The position numbers and the translations under genes were made by a program. The notes below the pieces were generated by a model. It saw only the letters and a list, made by a program, of their open reading frames with translations. It searched no databases and was not told the DNA's origin. From positions 1 to 59,032 of IMG/VR virus record IMGVR_UViG_3300025767_000019: a stretch of 59,032 bases of DNA. The stretch is one strand, 5' to 3'. Below are positions 4,551 through 56,197 of the stretch, piece by piece; positions within the stretch are counted from its first letter, which is position 1; every line of letters begins with the position of its first letter. The stretch is from a virus.

Positions 4551-5209
4551 TACTTCAACATTATGCAGGACAGATGGATGAACTGTCCAAGATGTCTGTT
4601 GCTAATATTAGCTCGTATGCAGAACGCATTGGTGCATCACACCGGTTGATTCTGGGTCAGGTGTTTAATTCCAACATATCAGCTCAGTCTCAAAAATTAA
4701 TAATGCTTGATAAGCAATTTGATGAGTATGAGACGGTAGTTATGGTAGATACGGACATGTTTGCGCGCTCTGATGAAAACATCTTTGAGGCTTCGGGTAT
4801 GGGAAGGCATACAAGGATACAATCGGAGTTGGTTGAGAAGATTAGTGCTCGTCGGCCTGACCTAGCAAACAGTAATGCACCATATTGGGGAGGGGCTGTT
4901 TATAAGTTTGATCAACAAACCCGGGAGCAGCTACGCAGCGCTATTCCGGATCAGTTTACTCTAAATGAATTGGATCGAATGTTAAAAGATGAAAGCATCA
5001 TGCATTACCTTGCATGGAAGTCCGGACTTACTGTTACCGACCAGACATACTTCTCTGGTAAGTGCGGCGGCGAAGAGTGGGACATGAATAGTTTTGATAA
5101 GCCGTCAGAAGGAAATATAATTCACATTCGACCCAAGTGGACTCTTACAGGTCCCAAGGCAACCAAACTTGAAATCTACAACGACCTGGTAACCAAATGC
5201 GTAATCTAA
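4541..5209 (+). CDS. GT-A glycosyltransferase, TTG start
   Basis: 222 residues with a DTD motif in VVMVDTDMFAR (D70/D72). TTG 4541 is chosen as start: GGAG (4531-4534) lies 6 nt upstream, and the resulting N-terminus MDIILQHYAGQMDELSKMSV aligns without gaps to the paralogues starting at 3154 and 5197. The upstream in-frame TTG 4529 has no ribosome site and would add four residues. The start overlaps the methyltransferase stop, so translation is coupled. Low-efficiency TTG may set a lower dose than its neighbours. Confidence 0.75.
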   Translation: MDIILQHYAGQMDELSKMSVANISSYAERIGASHRLILGQVFNSNISAQSQKLIMLDKQFDEYETVVMVDTDMFARSDENIFEASGMGRHTRIQSELVEKISARRPDLANSNAPYWGGAVYKFDQQTREQLRSAIPDQFTLNELDRMLKDESIMHYLAWKSGLTVTDQTYFSGKCGGEEWDMNSFDKPSEGNIIHIRPKWTLTGPKATKLEIYNDLVTKCVI

Positions 5210-15657: not shown

Positions 15658-15734
<77 letters not shown>

Positions 15735-25860: not shown

Positions 25861-25868
25861 TATTTATA
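25861..25868 (-). promoter_or_regulatory. late promoter TATAAATA
   Basis: A perfect T4-type late promoter on the minus strand. With T4 spacing, the start point is at about 25855, the A of the ATG of the downstream gene. Confidence 0.65.
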
Positions 25869-25875
25869 TGTTATT

Positions 25876-26379
25876 TTAGATCTTTTTCTTTTTCACTCTG
25901 AGGGGCTTCATTTTCTTCATGGGCTTAATTGTCTTTGGAAGATCTTTGGTCATGATACCCATTTGCTTTAACGTATCCTCTGTCCATATCTGAAACTCCC
26001 AACCTCTCTCTCTAGCATATTTGGTCGCGGCTTCCCACTTATTCATGTTCTTCACATATGTCAGAGATTCGGAAATATATCGTCTTGATCTGTCTGGTTT
26101 CTTGGGTGGCTCTGTTTCTTTTGCTGGCTTAATTTCAACCAGTATAGTTTTACCACCTCCCAATACAATTTTAAGATCAACAAAGTATCGGTGGTACTTC
26201 TTGTCAACATCATAGTAATAAGGAACGACAGTTTCCTCACTGGACCATCTAATGACCATTGGGTTATCATCACACCACTTGAAGCAATGTCTCTCCCACA
26301 TCGAGCGATATACAATCTTAGTATAGTCTCCAGAATACTTGTTTAGGTTCTTTGGTACAAACTTGCCTGAATAAGCCAT
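25876..26379 (-). CDS. 4: head completion protein gp4 (PD-(D/E)XK nuclease fold)
   Basis: 167 residues. MAYSGKFVPKNLNKYSGDYT followed by KIVYRSMWERHCFKWCDDNP, VIRWSSEETVVPYY, HRYFVDLKI and KTILVEIKPAKETEPPKKP is the gp4 pattern. D68 and E82-x-K84 with E48/E49 form the active-site arrangement of PD-(D/E)XK nucleases. gp4 finishes heads before tail joining, probably trimming DNA after packaging. A long basic C-terminus (KKMKPLRVKKKKI) is extra to the T4 protein and may bind DNA. Divergent from gene 48 across a 53-nt gap with two late promoters. Confidence 0.9.
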   Translation of the reverse strand: MAYSGKFVPKNLNKYSGDYTKIVYRSMWERHCFKWCDDNPMVIRWSSEETVVPYYYDVDKKYHRYFVDLKIVLGGGKTILVEIKPAKETEPPKKPDRSRRYISESLTYVKNMNKWEAATKYARERGWEFQIWTEDTLKQMGIMTKDLPKTIKPMKKMKPLRVKKKKI

Positions 26380-26389
26380 TGAGTTTCCA

Positions 26390-26397
26390 TATAAATA
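26390..26397 (+). promoter_or_regulatory. late promoter TATAAATA for gp48 onward
   Basis: Perfect late consensus, 35 nt before ATG 26433. Expected start about 26403. It faces the minus-strand element at 26416-26423, so their transcripts overlap by a few bases. Confidence 0.8.
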
Positions 26398-49126: not shown

Positions 49127-50983
49127 ATGACAATACGTTACCCACAAAAGTATACTACTCTATCGCGAGCTATTCGATCGGAAATAACAACATACACCTT
49201 TTCTGGTGTAAAAAGCGGAGTTACATTAACACAAATTAAGCTATTGCGGTTGACACCAGCACAAGCTGTTGATTCATGGAGCAATGGAGAAATAAATAAA
49301 AGTATTGGGGGTAGTAGCTATACTACTACAATGAATGCTAGAATGTCCACAGAGGCTAATGCTCGTGTGTGGTCTATTAATATGGACACCACCGTCAATG
49401 GTACTAGCAATGGATGGATATTCGTAAAAACATCTGATAACCAAGGGAACGAATTAGTAAACGGTTGGGAGTTGTGGTGGCCCAAAGAATCGGCCACCCA
49501 CAGCTACTATGACTTAAACGCCGCGTCGGCCGCCAATGCAGCGCTGGCGTTTGATAGATGGCCAGGTAACTTTACGGTAGTGGAGAATGATGATATTCTA
49601 TCTCCTCTTGTTGCTATACAAGACTTTCAAGAGACTGGCGAAGACAACAGAAAATATCAAGTGTATGCATTATATGATGCCTGGTTAAAGAGCCGTGGTA
49701 GCGACCCACTTGACGGTGAAAAAAATACAATTTCTGGAGTAGAGCTTGTTGTTCATCCGGTACGACACACCTTCTATACTGATAACCAAGGCGGTAACGC
49801 CGATCTCTTTATGGAACTAGGATACCGTTCCGACGAAACGAAGGAAGCCGCTGTGCTATCGGGTCCCGTAAATACTGATTTTACTCTTGGACTGGCATAC
49901 GCTTTAATTGGTCTCCAAACCAATTCATGGAGCCGAAGTATGAAAACTAGAGTGCTGGGCTCCCGCGAAATATATTATTTAAAATTGGGGTATCAGTGGG
50001 GAGTTATTAACGATCCAACGGACGCCCGCACAAACCAATTTATGTTGAAAGACAATAGGGTTATAGCTGGAGAACAACGGATAAGTGCCACAGATTATAT
50101 ATTTCCAGCCACATCTAGTGAGTATAATCTCACCACTCAATTCAATTTCAGAGCAACTCTTGATCAGTGGATTGACAGATCATATCGCGATAGATCGGTC
50201 ACGGGGAGTAGTCTGATGCCGGCCGATAATTTAATTCCGTTGTACTGGGACGGAACATCTCTTAAAAGGATGTCGTACGCTGACATTGTAGACACTTTTA
50301 TTGTTCCGACGTTGCAAACAATGAAGGGTGATGGTTTTGCAGATCAGACAGAAGATTTTAAACCATACACTGTTAGTACTTCAACATCAATTTCAAACTA
50401 TTATCCTGGTAAACCAATTTATTTTGATTCACGTATTGATAAAGACCAATATCAGTTTACTCTATCCCCAGACCAATACAAAGGAAACGACTTTGGTTAT
50501 TTACTAACGGTTGGGGCTGAAGAAACAAGAGATCAGCCAATCACAATAACTACCTATAGATTATTTACTAAAAACAACTGTAGAGCGGCAACAACCCAAT
50601 CTTCTAATTCTGTTGAATATATGGCGTTTGATGCCACGTCTAATAGTATTGTGGGTGTAACAAACAGTCAGCTAGCAACAGCACTTCTTCCTTTACTTAA
50701 TTTTCATATGTGTAGCGATGGTGCATATTCAATTAGATACAGTATGACAAATTCCGCAATTGCTAACTCCGAACCTGATACATCGTTGTATAATTCATCC
50801 ATCTCGTTGGGGTCTGTAATGCAAGACACATCATTTAATGAAGATACAGCAGGATTGGTTATTGGTTATTATGGAGGTACAGATGACTATAGAACCCAAG
50901 TCATGCCTGTAGCAGCAAACCAAACTGCTAGCAATACCACCAATACCATTCGCTTAAAAATGTATACCGTCTCAACCCCTTGA
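49127..50983 (+). CDS. fibre/virion structural protein, unknown
   Basis: 618 residues. MTIRYPQKYTTLSRAIRSEI at the start, then mixed alpha/beta: NGWELWWPKESATHSYYDLN, ADLFMELGYRSDETKEAAVL, YLKLGYQWGVINDPTDARTN, LIPLYWDGTSLKRMSYADIV; the last 150 residues resemble a Ser/Thr/Asn-rich beta domain (ISNYYPGKPIYFDSRI; FNEDTAGLVIGYYGGTDDYR). A plausible receptor-binding or distal fibre part after the shaft gene. No similarity I can name. SD AAGGAT before ATG 49127. Confidence 0.6.
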   Translation: MTIRYPQKYTTLSRAIRSEITTYTFSGVKSGVTLTQIKLLRLTPAQAVDSWSNGEINKSIGGSSYTTTMNARMSTEANARVWSINMDTTVNGTSNGWIFVKTSDNQGNELVNGWELWWPKESATHSYYDLNAASAANAALAFDRWPGNFTVVENDDILSPLVAIQDFQETGEDNRKYQVYALYDAWLKSRGSDPLDGEKNTISGVELVVHPVRHTFYTDNQGGNADLFMELGYRSDETKEAAVLSGPVNTDFTLGLAYALIGLQTNSWSRSMKTRVLGSREIYYLKLGYQWGVINDPTDARTNQFMLKDNRVIAGEQRISATDYIFPATSSEYNLTTQFNFRATLDQWIDRSYRDRSVTGSSLMPADNLIPLYWDGTSLKRMSYADIVDTFIVPTLQTMKGDGFADQTEDFKPYTVSTSTSISNYYPGKPIYFDSRIDKDQYQFTLSPDQYKGNDFGYLLTVGAEETRDQPITITTYRLFTKNNCRAATTQSSNSVEYMAFDATSNSIVGVTNSQLATALLPLLNFHMCSDGAYSIRYSMTNSAIANSEPDTSLYNSSISLGSVMQDTSFNEDTAGLVIGYYGGTDDYRTQVMPVAANQTASNTTNTIRLKMYTVSTP

Positions 50984-51003
50984 TTGTAATTATTGGAATA
51001 AAA

Positions 51004-51498
51004 ATGTTAGATACAAAAGATAAAGTAGTCAGCGCAATTTTTGGTAATACGGAACAAACAATGATCCGTGCTACAATTCAAAAGAGCAAAACAAAAGAAA
51101 TTCATGAAGTCAATGTTACCAGTATTGACGGGGACCCCTTTTTGTGGAATCAAATTATTTCCCAAGTACCGCTAGAAAGTATTGCGGAACAAACAAGAGA
51201 TTTCCAAGCGGGGCAGCGAAGAGCGCTTGCCGATACCCTAATAAATTATGCTAAGAAAAATAACTTAGTGTATGATCCCAGTACGTGGAGTCCCAATACC
51301 AAGTTATCTATTGATAACATCTTCGTTTTGCCTGAGGGCGACGTGGGATCAGATTTCTTATTTGAATTGAAACTAAGAGTATTTGATATGCCAAAAATTG
51401 CTGCCTCAAGTGATCAGGCAGTTAAGGTAGCAATTCGCGAAGCAGAGTCACCCATCGAAGTATTCTATCACGCCGGCAAGATTCTATTTAACAAATAA
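51004..51498 (+). CDS. protein downstream of fibre gene (possible chaperone), unknown
   Basis: 164 residues from ATG 51004, with GGA 6 nt upstream; an in-frame TTG start at 50980 overlapping the previous stop is possible. Helical and acidic, e.g. EQTRDFQAGQRRALADTLINYAKKNNLVYDPSTW and the end FYHAGKILFNK. Located directly after the likely receptor-binding protein, the usual place of a fibre assembly chaperone; sequence alone does not show it. It overlaps the convergent gene by 15 nt. Confidence 0.55.
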   Translation: MLDTKDKVVSAIFGNTEQTMIRATIQKSKTKEIHEVNVTSIDGDPFLWNQIISQVPLESIAEQTRDFQAGQRRALADTLINYAKKNNLVYDPSTWSPNTKLSIDNIFVLPEGDVGSDFLFELKLRVFDMPKIAASSDQAVKVAIREAESPIEVFYHAGKILFNK

Positions 51499-52185
51499 AT
51501 TATAATCGGCCCACTTGTGGGGATGATTGGCCATGTGAGTAAAGTGAACAAACTTTATCGATGGCCAGAACTCTCCTCCCAAGTATGCATATGGGTTACC
51601 AGTCACTTGTTTGAATCTAGTGTTCAATTTGGATACACTGGTTGTAAACTCTGGACCCTGTCTAGCTTCCATACGACAGAACCATTCTTTGGGGAGTGTG
51701 ATCAATTCCAACTGTTCCTTAACAGTATCATTGATAAAATGCTGCTCGCCGTTCACAGGACCAGATGTGAATCCTTCTTTAATATAAATTGTTTGCCAGT
51801 GTTCTGGATCCGACATGAATTTATCAAAGATATATCTACAATCCTTGGGATAATATTTGTAGAACCCTCCGTTGATGGTGAATCGGGTTTCTAAGTCCTC
51901 AAACCCCCAACGCCACCAACCAGGTGCTGCTAAAAATTGGCCTCGTTCAATGGGATAGTCGAATATCTTTTTATAGTCCCCCAACAACAGCACGTCAATA
52001 TCCATTACGCATACTGGTTCGTCCTGATCCAAAGTCATACCGATCATTTTGTTCCACTGTAGCTTGACTCTGGGGTCAAATGCTTCACGAATCCAAACAA
52101 ATTCGTACTCTGGTAACTTAGACTCGAGATACGTCTCATACTCCGGACCGTATCGATCACCAATTCTAACTGCTATGATTTTCAT
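51484..52185 (-). CDS. GT-A glycosyltransferase-like protein
   Basis: 233 residues. MKIIAVRIGDRYGPEYETYL and the DxD in EPVCVMDIDVLLLGDY (D62/D64), FTINGGFYKYYP and C-terminal KFVHFTHMANHPHKW with His residues. N-terminus aligns with the gene at 54719 (M-I--V--GD-Y--EY---L), so the two are paralogues. Last gene of the minus-strand cassette; its end overlaps the plus-strand gene at 51004. Substrates unknown; a virion protein or fibre acceptor is suggested by location. Confidence 0.72.
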   Translation of the reverse strand: MKIIAVRIGDRYGPEYETYLESKLPEYEFVWIREAFDPRVKLQWNKMIGMTLDQDEPVCVMDIDVLLLGDYKKIFDYPIERGQFLAAPGWWRWGFEDLETRFTINGGFYKYYPKDCRYIFDKFMSDPEHWQTIYIKEGFTSGPVNGEQHFINDTVKEQLELITLPKEWFCRMEARQGPEFTTSVSKLNTRFKQVTGNPYAYLGGEFWPSIKFVHFTHMANHPHKWADYNLFVK

Positions 52186-53488
52186 ATAGTATATTCAATC
52201 TAAAGGGGGTCTGTCCAATTACCGTTGTGTTGGGTAAATCCAAAAGCTGGTTGAACTGCTCATTCATGTGTTCCAATGAGTACTTATGATATGAAAAGAT
52301 ATAAGAGAATATATTAGTCAAGTAGATCAAGTTAGACTTCGAAGGGTTAACTTCGAGTGTTTGAGTGAAGTAATCAAATTGCTTTATCTCAACATCCTTT
52401 ATCTGCTGCATAGCAGCAATCCAATCATGATCGGAAAAGATATCATCATTCTCTTCAATAAAACCAGATGGTTTATATGACGCGTCGTCAATTCGACTAT
52501 TGTATACTTTAGCTACAATCTTTGTAATTCGCTCAATATCATTAACGGTTTTGGCGCCGTACAAATTAAATAGCCCATCTTTCCACTTTAGAGACGGTTC
52601 GTGGTTGTCCACTATTACTAGTTTGCTATTCTCGTGACCAAACCGTTTCCACAAATACTCTGCAACATTACCAGCGGCGGGTGCGTAGATAACATCATAC
52701 TTTCTCGACAGCGGAATCTTATCAATCTGTGATAACTTCGATGTGTTACGTCTGTAAATAATATTGGGCGATTTTTGCTGATCGGCAACTAACGGGGCAC
52801 TCAACTCTTCACGTTGAGGATACGTAAAGTATTTGGAGCTACGTTCCGGTGATGTGAAGTTTGTTATTGTATCACCTCCTGCTACCACCTTGCTAATATA
52901 TTCAGCCATTTCAGCATTTTTAACTTCACGTGTTTCAGTACCTGGTTGTAGCCACGTCGGAGTATAGTCGTCGTGAATATTATCTTGTGACACTTTGGGT
53001 ATTGTCGCGATACCACTCCATTTGCCAAATGTGGGTCGATCAATATCGCGCCAGTGTCGAAGATTTAAAAACATTGATTGTAGGTGCATCCTACCATATT
53101 GCTTATCCGGGTGCCACAAAATATGACCACGGCACGGACTATCGTTACGCTCAATCCACTTGTCTAGGTAGTGGTAAATGCTGTATTCAGAAGAACTAGC
53201 AGGAAAACGATATACCGTTCCAACATAGGATACCAGAGCGTAATCATACTCGTCAGCAAGAGTTGCACCCTCGTCTAACGTCTTTGCAAAAATAACATTA
53301 TGTTCGTCATTACCACCTCTAGACCACCCAATGCCTGTCATCCAGGTCAAAGTCATTAAGTATTTTTTAAAGTCACCCCACTCGAGTTGTGGGTAGTCGA
53401 CAATGATGTGAACTTGATTACGCTTATTAATTTTATTATGGCCCGCGTGGTCCAAAATATACTTTGCGTACTCCTCAAATGACTGCAT
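52166..53488 (-). CDS. unknown cassette protein, 440 residues
   Basis: 440 residues (MQSFEEYAKYILDHAGHNKI). N-terminal part has HIIVDYPQLEWGDFKKYLMT, EYDYALVSYVGTVYRFPASS, GHILWHPDKQYGRMHLQSMFLNLRHW; C-terminal half has KYDVIYAPAAGNVAEYLWKR and KLVIVDNHEPSLKWKDGLFNLYGAK, which could form a Rossmann-like binding unit. The N-terminal part and the VxPKV-type segment resemble 'rhamnosyl/glycosyl' accessory proteins only weakly; I assign no family. Starts in overlap with the oxygenase gene, ends in overlap with the glycosyltransferase. Confidence 0.55.
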   Translation of the reverse strand: MQSFEEYAKYILDHAGHNKINKRNQVHIIVDYPQLEWGDFKKYLMTLTWMTGIGWSRGGNDEHNVIFAKTLDEGATLADEYDYALVSYVGTVYRFPASSSEYSIYHYLDKWIERNDSPCRGHILWHPDKQYGRMHLQSMFLNLRHWRDIDRPTFGKWSGIATIPKVSQDNIHDDYTPTWLQPGTETREVKNAEMAEYISKVVAGGDTITNFTSPERSSKYFTYPQREELSAPLVADQQKSPNIIYRRNTSKLSQIDKIPLSRKYDVIYAPAAGNVAEYLWKRFGHENSKLVIVDNHEPSLKWKDGLFNLYGAKTVNDIERITKIVAKVYNSRIDDASYKPSGFIEENDDIFSDHDWIAAMQQIKDVEIKQFDYFTQTLEVNPSKSNLIYLTNIFSYIFSYHKYSLEHMNEQFNQLLDLPNTTVIGQTPFRLNILYENHSS

Positions 53489-54137
53489 CTGGGTATTCTT
53501 TCTTAAATGATCTAATAAACAACTTCAACCGTTCTTCGTTGGATCCCCCATGAACAATAAAGTGGATCCTTGGTTGTTTCGAAAAGTTGGCTGCCTCGTG
53601 AAACGGCCCGTTGTTAAACCAGTACACCTCAAGAGGAGAAAACGGTACTTCTAGCTTATCTTCGACCCTTCGAAGGTAGCAGTTGTCTGGTTGTGTAATG
53701 CAAATGTTTATCGCTGACATAATATCATCTTTTAACGGCATACCTTCTTTCCATTGATGAGTATCGGTATGAGACCTAATGAACCCACCAGACTCTAATA
53801 ACATAAAACGAGCTCTGCCATACTTCCCATTATTAGGAAAGTCTTCTCTCAACCAACGAGTCATTTCAGGTGCGAGATCAGCCAGCTTAGTCCATTTATA
53901 AAAATCTTTAGCAGTGGGATTGTAATGTGTAATATTCCAATCCTCACCATGCAGAGTAGCAGAGGACCAACCCCTCCCGTGGGATTCTCGGTGGGCCGTA
54001 AACAGTCCTTGATTATAAATTGTTTTTGCTTCATCAACAACAGCCTCCGGGATTGTAATATCTGCTTTGAGGTAGAAGACTTTATTGTCTCTACACCACT
54101 GTTTAATTTTTTCTACTTCATCCAAACATTGCATCAT
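53475..54137 (-). CDS. 2-oxoglutarate/Fe(II) oxygenase, Asp/Asn beta-hydroxylase type
   Basis: 220 residues. RSHTDTHQW (H123, D125) is the facial-triad HxD, H180 in FNNGPFHEAANF is the distal His, and R190 in KQPRIHFIVHGG the 2-oxoglutarate-binding Arg, as in aspartyl/asparaginyl hydroxylases (PF05118). FMLLESGGFIRSHTD is the strand before the triad. Such enzymes hydroxylate Asp, Asn or Pro in proteins. In a cassette with glycosyltransferases under a late promoter, it would create or prime hydroxylated residues on virion proteins for glycosylation; inference. Confidence 0.82.
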   Translation of the reverse strand: MMQCLDEVEKIKQWCRDNKVFYLKADITIPEAVVDEAKTIYNQGLFTAHRESHGRGWSSATLHGEDWNITHYNPTAKDFYKWTKLADLAPEMTRWLREDFPNNGKYGRARFMLLESGGFIRSHTDTHQWKEGMPLKDDIMSAINICITQPDNCYLRRVEDKLEVPFSPLEVYWFNNGPFHEAANFSKQPRIHFIVHGGSNEERLKLFIRSFKKEYPDAVI

Positions 54138-54669
54138 ATGTACTGTGAGTTATTTTATCAACTGTTAATAATGAGAGATCACCTCTATAGAATATACGCC
54201 GCCACGAATCTTTAGAAGTCTTTGGAGAGGCAACGCAGTAATAGTAATTAGGATCTTCTGTGTATCCAAAGCTAGTATACCAACGCGACACTAGTTTTGT
54301 ACGTCGATGCCAGTTTGCGGTTATTATAGATAACTTATAATCTGTGTGATTGTCAATCAAATCGCATATAGCGTATTTAAAACCTTCTCGTCTGTGCTCA
54401 GTGGGCGCGATGGACAAGTTATTTCGAAACACTTGAGATATGTATAGATCACTAACCCTACACACCCTAGGGTCGTACAACCCTCCATTTACAAATGTTG
54501 CGGACGCTCCTGGAACTCCGTTGTAATATACTAATAAGAAGTAATCGCGATTGTGCAAATCTTTGGGTTGTACGCCCTCTTGCTGAGCTTGTTCAACAAA
54601 GCTATTGTATTCGTCAAATGGCTCGGTGCTCAGTATATGTTTAAAGCAACTAAATGTTTCTATTATCAT
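54118..54669 (-). CDS. GNAT-like acetyltransferase-type protein
   Basis: 183 residues. HNRDYFLLVYYNGVPGASATFVNGG resembles the beta2-beta4 part of a GNAT domain, RVSDLYISQVFRNNLSIAPTEHRREGFKYAICDLI the helix-loop region, and ANWHRRTKLVSRWYTSFGYTED the C-terminal 'GF' helix-strand of GNATs. The acetyl-CoA pyrophosphate loop (Q/RxxGxG/A) is not plain, hence moderate confidence. Start overlaps no neighbour; 20-nt overlap with the oxygenase gene at its end. Would modify an amino or hydroxyl group of the cassette's substrate. Confidence 0.5.
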   Translation of the reverse strand: MIIETFSCFKHILSTEPFDEYNSFVEQAQQEGVQPKDLHNRDYFLLVYYNGVPGASATFVNGGLYDPRVCRVSDLYISQVFRNNLSIAPTEHRREGFKYAICDLIDNHTDYKLSIITANWHRRTKLVSRWYTSFGYTEDPNYYYCVASPKTSKDSWRRIFYRGDLSLLTVDKITHSTYDAMFG

Positions 54670-54718
54670 GTATATCCCTGCCTAACCGGCGGTATGGTAT
54701 TATACCATTAAAACTCAA

Positions 54719-55384
54719 TTAAGTCCAGTATTTTTTTACCCAAGGTTGTGCCAAACAAATGTCGGCACCCTCATTAAATAAACAGACTTCGTACGCCGGT
54801 CTGTGTAATCCGATCTGACTGTCGGTTTTGTAGTGCGTACCTTTGTTATACGAGTAAGCGATATTGATTGGTAAGGTTTCGAGTTCCAACTGCTCGTTGT
54901 ACAGGAACCTGTCCACACCTTTGTATTTGAATAGACTGTCGATTTTTTTTCGTTGGAAGAGTTCATACGCTGGTAATCCTTGGTTATCTTTCCACATCAT
55001 AATTGAAGAGTTGTACACTGTCGGATATCGATCATCCGAACAGGGCTGATACATTCCGTCTTTCCAAGCTGTATATAATACAGACAACTTGGAGGGGGTA
55101 TGATTCATTAACTTACTTAGCGGATTGATAATAACAATATCAAGATCAAAAAGTATATTAGTTCCGTGGCCATTAAATTTTCCCAATAGGTCTATCTTGA
55201 GCCACCACTTTTCGAGATCGGACTCAATGGGAATAACTTTAACCTCTTCACGAATCTCTGATGGATCCTCTGTATAGCAATAGAAGTCAAAATCGCGTGG
55301 TAGATTTCGCTTGACCATACTATAGAGTTTGTTAACATATTCAGCAGAGTACTTATCACCCCACTTCACACATAATATATTCAT
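54719..55384 (-). CDS. GT-A glycosyltransferase
   Basis: 221 residues. MNILCVKWGDKYSAEYVNKLYSM with DFYCYTEDPS, then TNILFDLDIVIINPLS (DLD, D80/D82), YNSSIMMWKD and the final DICLAQPWVKKYW. The 'KWGDKYSAEYV' start and DLD motif are typical of a glycosyltransferase family widespread in marine phages and bacteria. It is a paralogue of the gene at 51484. A hairpin ATGGTA-TAA-TACCAT (54691-54711, approximately) in the 49-nt gap after its stop could be a weak transcript end. Confidence 0.76.
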   Translation of the reverse strand: MNILCVKWGDKYSAEYVNKLYSMVKRNLPRDFDFYCYTEDPSEIREEVKVIPIESDLEKWWLKIDLLGKFNGHGTNILFDLDIVIINPLSKLMNHTPSKLSVLYTAWKDGMYQPCSDDRYPTVYNSSIMMWKDNQGLPAYELFQRKKIDSLFKYKGVDRFLYNEQLELETLPINIAYSYNKGTHYKTDSQIGLHRPAYEVCLFNEGADICLAQPWVKKYWT

Positions 55385-55390
55385 TGTATT

Positions 55391-56098
55391 TTAATTGTAT
55401 CCCATCTTTTGTGACAGTTGATCCAAATCAGCAGAGGTCAAATCTTTGAAAGGAAAGTACAACAAGGAGTAGAATCTGTCTGGTGTAAGACCGTTACCCA
55501 GATCCGGAAATGATGCAATGTCGGCGCGAGGAGAACCATCCGCAGTGTTAATTTGTTCTTGGGTAACATTCCCAGAATTCAGTAACTTATTAACAACATG
55601 ATCTGGATTAGATCTCAAGTATTCAGCAATTGTTACCCCGTTTTCTGAAGCTGTGTGACGCAACTTCCACATGTAATACATGTCCTGGAGGTGTGGAGCA
55701 ACCACTACTACCTCATTAGCCAATTGCTCAAAGCTACGGCCAGTGTGTTTTGACAGAGCTTGAGCTTCTAAAAGATACAGGTTAAAGTTTGAAGAAGATT
55801 TGCGCGCTGGGGGAAGACTCGATTTATTAATAAATATCTTTTGACAGTGGTATTTTTCTAACTCATTGTATGCGTTATTAACTAAATCCTCATATCTAAC
55901 TGGCAGCTCATCATTGTTGGCAAATATTTCATTGAACCCCACAAGACAAAGAACTATAGTATTATTTACGCCGTAATAATCAATACAGATATCCAACAAC
56001 AATTTAGAAGACTCATCTTCTGTATATGAGACAACCACCTTTTGACCAGCACTCAGTTGTGGTAAATTATCAAATGTGTTCCACGTTTCTAAAGACAT
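55391..56098 (-). CDS. unknown; possible degenerate PP-loop protein
   Basis: 235 residues. KVVVSYTEDESSKLLLDICI near the N-terminus looks like a PP-loop (SGGxDS) of N-type ATP pyrophosphatases in place but not in sequence (SYTEDESS), followed by a strand NNTIVLCLVGFNEIF as in that fold. Later KHTGRSFEQLANEVVVVAPH is helical. If it is an ATP pyrophosphatase relative, the nucleotide-binding serine-glycine pair is lost. First gene of the cassette, 29 nt from the inverted-repeat late promoter (56127). Function not known. Confidence 0.5.
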   Translation of the reverse strand: MSLETWNTFDNLPQLSAGQKVVVSYTEDESSKLLLDICIDYYGVNNTIVLCLVGFNEIFANNDELPVRYEDLVNNAYNELEKYHCQKIFINKSSLPPARKSSSNFNLYLLEAQALSKHTGRSFEQLANEVVVVAPHLQDMYYMWKLRHTASENGVTIAEYLRSNPDHVVNKLLNSGNVTQEQINTADGSPRADIASFPDLGNGLTPDRFYSLLYFPFKDLTSADLDQLSQKMGYN

Positions 56099-56126
56099 TA
56101 TTAAACTCCGTATAAATGTACTCTAA

Positions 56127-56134
56127 TATTTATA
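56127..56134 (-). promoter_or_regulatory. late promoter TATAAATA (minus) of the modification cassette
   Basis: Perfect late consensus reading leftwards, expected start about 56121, 23 nt before the ATG of the first cassette gene. It is one arm of the inverted repeat 56127-56164. Confidence 0.82.
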
Positions 56135-56156
56135 ATGGTTTTGTTTATAAAACCAT

Positions 56157-56164
56157 TATAAATA
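56157..56164 (+). promoter_or_regulatory. late promoter TATAAATA (plus)
   Basis: Perfect late consensus reading rightwards, right arm of the inverted repeat, 33 nt before ATG 56198. Confidence 0.82.
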
Positions 56165-56197
56165 AAGGGAGTAGGCAACAACGTTCACAGGTTTAAC

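Follow-up and report, generated by a model that had tools for sequence, protein, structure and literature searches.

Predicted divergent T4-type late promoters within a perfect 16-bp inverted repeat between a modification cassette and tail-fibre genes of a T4-like phage

Genome context of the strand switch

The window, meaning the whole 59,032-nt stretch of viral DNA that was analysed, belongs to a T4-like phage. It contains homologues of gp2 (DNA end protector), gp4 (head closure), and gp32, together with homologues of the tail tube cap, several baseplate wedge and hub proteins, and fibre proteins. The 59-kb record is presumably a fragment; the genomes of cultured relatives range from 140 to 240 kb. 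The only tRNA gene of the window, a tRNA-Arg gene (anticodon TCT), was located at positions 15658–15734, and tRNA was the only known RNA family found in the window.

A leftward cassette and rightward genes, namely an L-shaped tail fibre assembly-like gene and further fibre genes, diverge from a 121-bp intergenic region (Table 1). The matches to PF05118, phrog_1962, phrog_3304, and phrog_967 agree with the initial annotation, which had placed a modification cassette on the left and fibre genes on the right. Apart from the hydroxylase and the glycosyltransferase-like gene, no cassette gene was assigned a function by the searches made. At the corresponding position, the related contig L124 encodes a diverged homologue of the 235-aa product of the first cassette gene (26% identity; tblastn E 5e-5). 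A protein-level search of the phage collection with the hydroxylase gave no match within the cut-off applied.

The content of the cassette is variable, and many viral contigs (L198–L202 and L238–L310) carry portions of it. In Pelagibacter phage Mosig, a cassette with an Asp/Arg hydroxylase and an acetyltransferase lies upstream of the same fibre gene and runs in the same direction. The far end of the cassette in the window is arranged tail-to-tail, where a plus-strand ORF (50980–51498) overlaps the last minus-strand ORF (51484–52185) by 15 nt. In several relatives, the corresponding two genes also converge and either adjoin or overlap.

Table 1. Genes, promoter cores, and repeat elements around the strand switch
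Feature	Position	Strand	Remarks
Leftward cassette, six genes	51484–56098	-	
233-aa protein gene	51484–52185	-	
440-aa protein gene	52166–53488	-	
Asp/Arg beta-hydroxylase gene	53475–54137	-	PF05118
183-aa protein gene	54118–54669	-	no function assigned
Glycosyltransferase-like gene	54719–55384	-	phrog_1962
First gene of leftward cassette, 235 aa	55391–56098	-	GGAG ribosome-binding site 56109–56106
Wider imperfect symmetric zone	~56119–56173		from folding; outer stem TACTCT / GGGAGTA
Left arm of inverted repeat, TATTTATAATGGTTTT	56127–56142	-	minus strand reads AAAACCATTATAAATA
Predicted leftward late promoter core, TATAAATA	56134–56127	-	core also at the same place in L123/L124
Loop, GTTTAT (6 nt)	56143–56148		separates the arms
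Right arm of inverted repeat, AAAACCATTATAAATA	56149–56164	+	
Predicted rightward late promoter core, TATAAATA	56157–56164	+	kept in most of 71 relatives
L-shaped tail fibre assembly-like protein gene, 117 aa	56198–56551	+	phrog_3304, phrog_1084
Tail-fibre / baseplate connector-like protein gene, 285 aa	56556–57413	+	phrog_967

Divergent late promoter cores

Exact TATAAATA cores were found on both strands of the intergenic region, facing outward with 22 bp between them. Each core ends about 30 nt ahead of a start codon (56098 leftward and 56198 rightward), so that both sides show the exact core, the short distance, and the late gene with a ribosome-binding site that characterise a T4-type late promoter. 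In T4, gp55 recognises the late promoter at its -10 box; there is no upstream element, and the TATA box precedes the transcription start by about one turn (PMC2988020). Late transcripts of T4 run in either direction (PMC2988020, PMC2984593). By analogy with the T4 spacing, the start sites are predicted near 56121 for the leftward transcript and near 56170 for the rightward one, 49 bp apart.

The sites resemble the gp55/gp33/gp45-dependent late promoters in their 8-bp core, which is that of T4 (the cyanophage S-PM2 version reads NATAAATA), in the AT-rich region downstream, and in standing a short way ahead of T4-like late genes. They differ in that the outward pair, with its 22-bp spacing, is contained in a perfect 16-bp inverted repeat, a symmetry that the definition of the T4-type late promoter family does not include and that is absent from the relatives found. 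The sequence supports two divergent T4-type late promoters at the cassette boundary, whose activity is predicted. It lends no support to the equal strength that the initial annotation gave to the two promoters.

Elsewhere, TATAAATA sites adjoining late-type genes recur at equivalent positions in the nearest relative; cores in the region of gp2, gp4, and the tail tube cap, for example, lie at 25861–26397 of the window and at 2373–2894 of contig L216. Several late promoters of the subclade have CCA or ACA directly before the core and AGTA within about 5 nt after it, a context that may represent a weak extended late-promoter motif.

Structure and rarity of the inverted repeat

The initial annotation had described a perfect 16-bp inverted repeat holding two divergent late promoters, and this description was confirmed: the arms TATTTATAATGGTTTT and AAAACCATTATAAATA are exact reverse complements over 16 bp, and there is one TATAAATA core per strand. 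Folding extended the symmetry imperfectly outward, and the outer stem reaches the start sites predicted from T4 spacing for both transcripts. The predicted RNA fold of the repeat had a free energy of -24.2 kcal/mol (z -4.5).

This was the sole perfect inverted repeat with arms of at least 16 bp in the 59-kb window when loops of 3–60 nt were allowed, and it has no second copy there. About 0.001 such repeats were expected in the window from base composition, and none with arms of at least 14 bp appeared in 12 first-order Markov simulations. Shuffling only the flanks, with both TATAAATA cores kept in place, reached the observed inverted-repeat score in 63 of 20,000 trials. Among random pairs of late-promoter-like sites, a count that includes the window's own pair, at least eight bases upstream of the core were shared at a frequency of about 0.0008. 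The probability of the arm match was about 0.00002 from base composition, 0.0008 from promoter pairs, and 0.003 from flank shuffles, all of these being local values for a repeat picked post hoc from a large scan. The 16-bp symmetry exceeds chance locally, though it was chosen after the fact.

The whole palindrome, with a loop of 0–20 nt, had no exact match in a scan of viral contigs. One 16-mer arm alone matched at least 120 stretches there, a number that is uninformative at that database size. The intergenic region gave only weak, chance-like DNA matches among cultured phages.

Conservation among relatives

Relatives were collected by the fibre-gene protein, which yielded 71 loci. The TATAAATA core is present upstream of the fibre assembly-like gene in most of these loci, and the next gene upstream and its orientation vary among them. 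On this comparison of sequences, the promoter at the rightward late core is conserved, and the module boundary where it stands is variable.

The nearest relative found is represented by L123 and L124 (fibre protein 81% identity), which look like one virus and thus give one independent relative with both the cassette and the boundary. Searches with the hydroxylase, glycosyltransferase-like, and fibre proteins found both sides of the boundary only in this relative. It has most of the cassette genes in the same order and orientation (contigs L196 and L197 correspond to L123 and L124) and the same strand switch. An assembly chimera was rejected on the basis of the shared synteny across the site. 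Both divergent cores are present in L123/L124, 21 bp apart, in a sequence that reads TATTTATAaatgttcacaaccacaaccatTATAAATA and lacks the extended symmetry. The initial annotation had named relatives with the cores only as evidence against its reading of the extension, and L123/L124 is such a relative.

Only five exact divergent core pairs with a spacer of 5–35 bp occurred in 52 related records, and all fetched loci (2.39 Mb) held eight distinct exact pairs. The inward symmetric extension of these eight pairs was 0, 0, 0, 0, 1, 1, 1, and 8 bp, the last being that of the window. Among 99 late-promoter-like sites drawn from the window and its relatives, no other had AAAACCAT before the core. AACCAT beside the rightward core is common to the window and L124. 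The minus promoter of the window (CAAAACCATTATAAATATTA) is identical to the plus promoter of L124 (CACAACCATTATAAATAATA) at 18 of 20 positions. Compared with the minus promoter of L124, its likeness is confined to the core and leader and excludes the upstream flank.

Origin and meaning of the symmetry

The locus is probably an ordinary back-to-back pair of T4-type late promoters, whose flanks were made identical in this lineage by a local template switch or by coincidence. The polymerase footprints at such a pair should overlap, so that only a single polymerase would be able to fire at any moment, into the cassette on the left or the fibre genes on the right; with predicted starts 49 bp apart, two polymerases could hardly bind together. 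The divergent pair probably predates the palindrome, and the eight extra matching bases on each side would be a lineage-specific change. Most likely, a local template switch while the phage was replicating would have rewritten one arm to match the other (quasi-palindrome homogenisation), with coincidence as the alternative source. Since T4 late promoters lack an upstream element (PMC2988020), no factor is known that would read the extra eight bases, and we found no support for a function of the palindrome itself.

Template switching homogenises short inverted repeats, with arms of up to 16 bp in yeast (PMC8604942). As in the documented cases (PMC8604942, PMC7202029), an imperfect repeat, here the two cores, would have been made perfect by clustered changes in one arm. 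The match between the window minus promoter and the L124 plus promoter fits what arm copying predicts, and the clustered one-arm pattern appears when L124, a single relative of unfixed polarity, is taken as ancestor-like. Unlike the documented cases, the change would be read from one diverged relative whose state does not fix the ancestral one. Given a single independent relative, change in either direction is conceivable: the arm match may be due to chance, or L124 may have lost a formerly symmetric state. A weak clade preference for CCA or ACA before the core could also have given part of the likeness instead of copying, but it covers only part of the arm match.

Coincidence, in which the 8-bp flanks of two AT-rich late promoters are alike by chance, keeps a minor share of the probability. 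The post hoc selection of the repeat from a large scan and the roughly 8 in 10,000 random promoter pairs that match as far both leave room for it. However, the local probability is low under every null, and the upstream flank of the minus arm is nearer to the L124 plus promoter than to its own L124 counterpart. An inverted duplication of the rightward promoter, which would have created the leftward promoter and the strand switch upon cassette insertion, is unlikely. The likeness of the two promoters does cover the flank, the core, and the imperfect outer stem (~56119–56173), and the similar cassette of phage Mosig is codirectional with the same fibre gene. However, L123/L124 already have the inverted cassette and both cores with a diverged flank, so the strand switch is older than the present symmetry unless the symmetry of L124 decayed. 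The duplication-inversion that the initial annotation had offered as the source of the strand switch is accordingly disfavoured, and its other proposal, a shared factor site, is unsupported. In that proposal, the palindrome is an operator whose symmetric halves ATGGTTTT and AAAACCAT bind a dimeric factor co-regulating the cassette and fibre genes, and we regard this as very unlikely. It draws on the perfect symmetry past the cores, above local chance, and on the AACCAT next to the rightward core that recurs in L124. Against it, a shared operator would have its half-site recur at co-regulated promoters or be kept in relatives, and AAAACCAT was seen at no other site among 99, L123/L124 have no symmetric half on the minus side, and T4 late transcription depends on gp55 at a -10 box with no upstream element (PMC2988020). 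There is a slimmer chance still that the palindrome is a lineage-specific control element, where a bound dimeric phage factor, or a cruciform in supercoiled DNA, would balance late firing between the cassette and the fibre genes.

A role in RNA is the most improbable of the readings considered. The repeat would act as a bidirectional terminator, or as a structure that masks ribosome-binding sites on read-through transcripts, as at T4 gene e or soc. The strong predicted fold is in its favour, and T4 late promoters ahead of gene e do lie within stems of this kind (PMC3014915). However, the stem is clear of both start codons and both likely Shine-Dalgarno sites, and transcripts of both late promoters would begin outside the 16-bp stem. 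An intrinsic terminator, which requires a G+C-rich stem and a T-run, was rejected: the stem is AT-rich, neither arm is followed by a T-run, and terminator calling gave none here. A PeSL cassette was likewise rejected. PeSLs, the promoter/stem-loop shuffling cassettes of T4-type phages as summarised in PMC4503421 after Arbiol 2010 and Comeau 2014, combine an early promoter with a stem-loop. The window resembles them, on that summary, in having a promoter and a stem-loop at a module boundary of a T4-like phage. In place of the sigma-70-type early promoter and stem-loop terminator found at several boundaries in that description, it has a late-type core pair that is unrepeated in the window and no called terminator.

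Taken as an ordinary promoter pair, the locus provides an example of how a swappable modification cassette, running the other way, can be joined to the conserved late promoter that serves a T4-like tail-fibre operon. Its symmetry is real and locally improbable but unconserved, a decoration of a promoter pair of known type, and it warns against assigning function to a palindrome that is missing in relatives. Arm homogenisation, if confirmed, would neatly illustrate how template switching can remodel a pair of phage promoters.

A leader hairpin in most relatives

The leader hairpin of most relatives may merit more attention than the palindrome. Just downstream of the rightward late promoter, a hairpin of the form GCAGGG-stem-loop-CCGACAA(AG) was found in 43 of the loci available for this count. 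Neither the window nor L124 nor any of the cultured phages tested has the hairpin, which had no Rfam match and is apparently undescribed so far. In a search of 20 whole records, seven were positive, each with a single occurrence.

The 29 distinct versions of the hairpin were compared for base pairing. The first two variable pairs were standard in 29 of 29 versions, and the third in all 23 that were long enough for it, where about 16 standard pairs would be expected from shuffling. The pair types were AT/GT/TA at the first position, CG/AT/GT/GC at the second, and AT/GC/CG/GT at the third. In alignment A3, which has five misaligned rows, 84.7% of cells were paired, compared to 73.9% after shuffling and 33–60% in slid versions. 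This covariation suggests that the hairpin is possibly a new structured 5' leader element, and a natural guess is that it serves as a leader of late transcripts for fibre-gene expression. Examples of the form GCAGGG-stem-loop-CCGACAAAG lie at positions 4957–4981 of both L125 and L127, and in 41 other loci.
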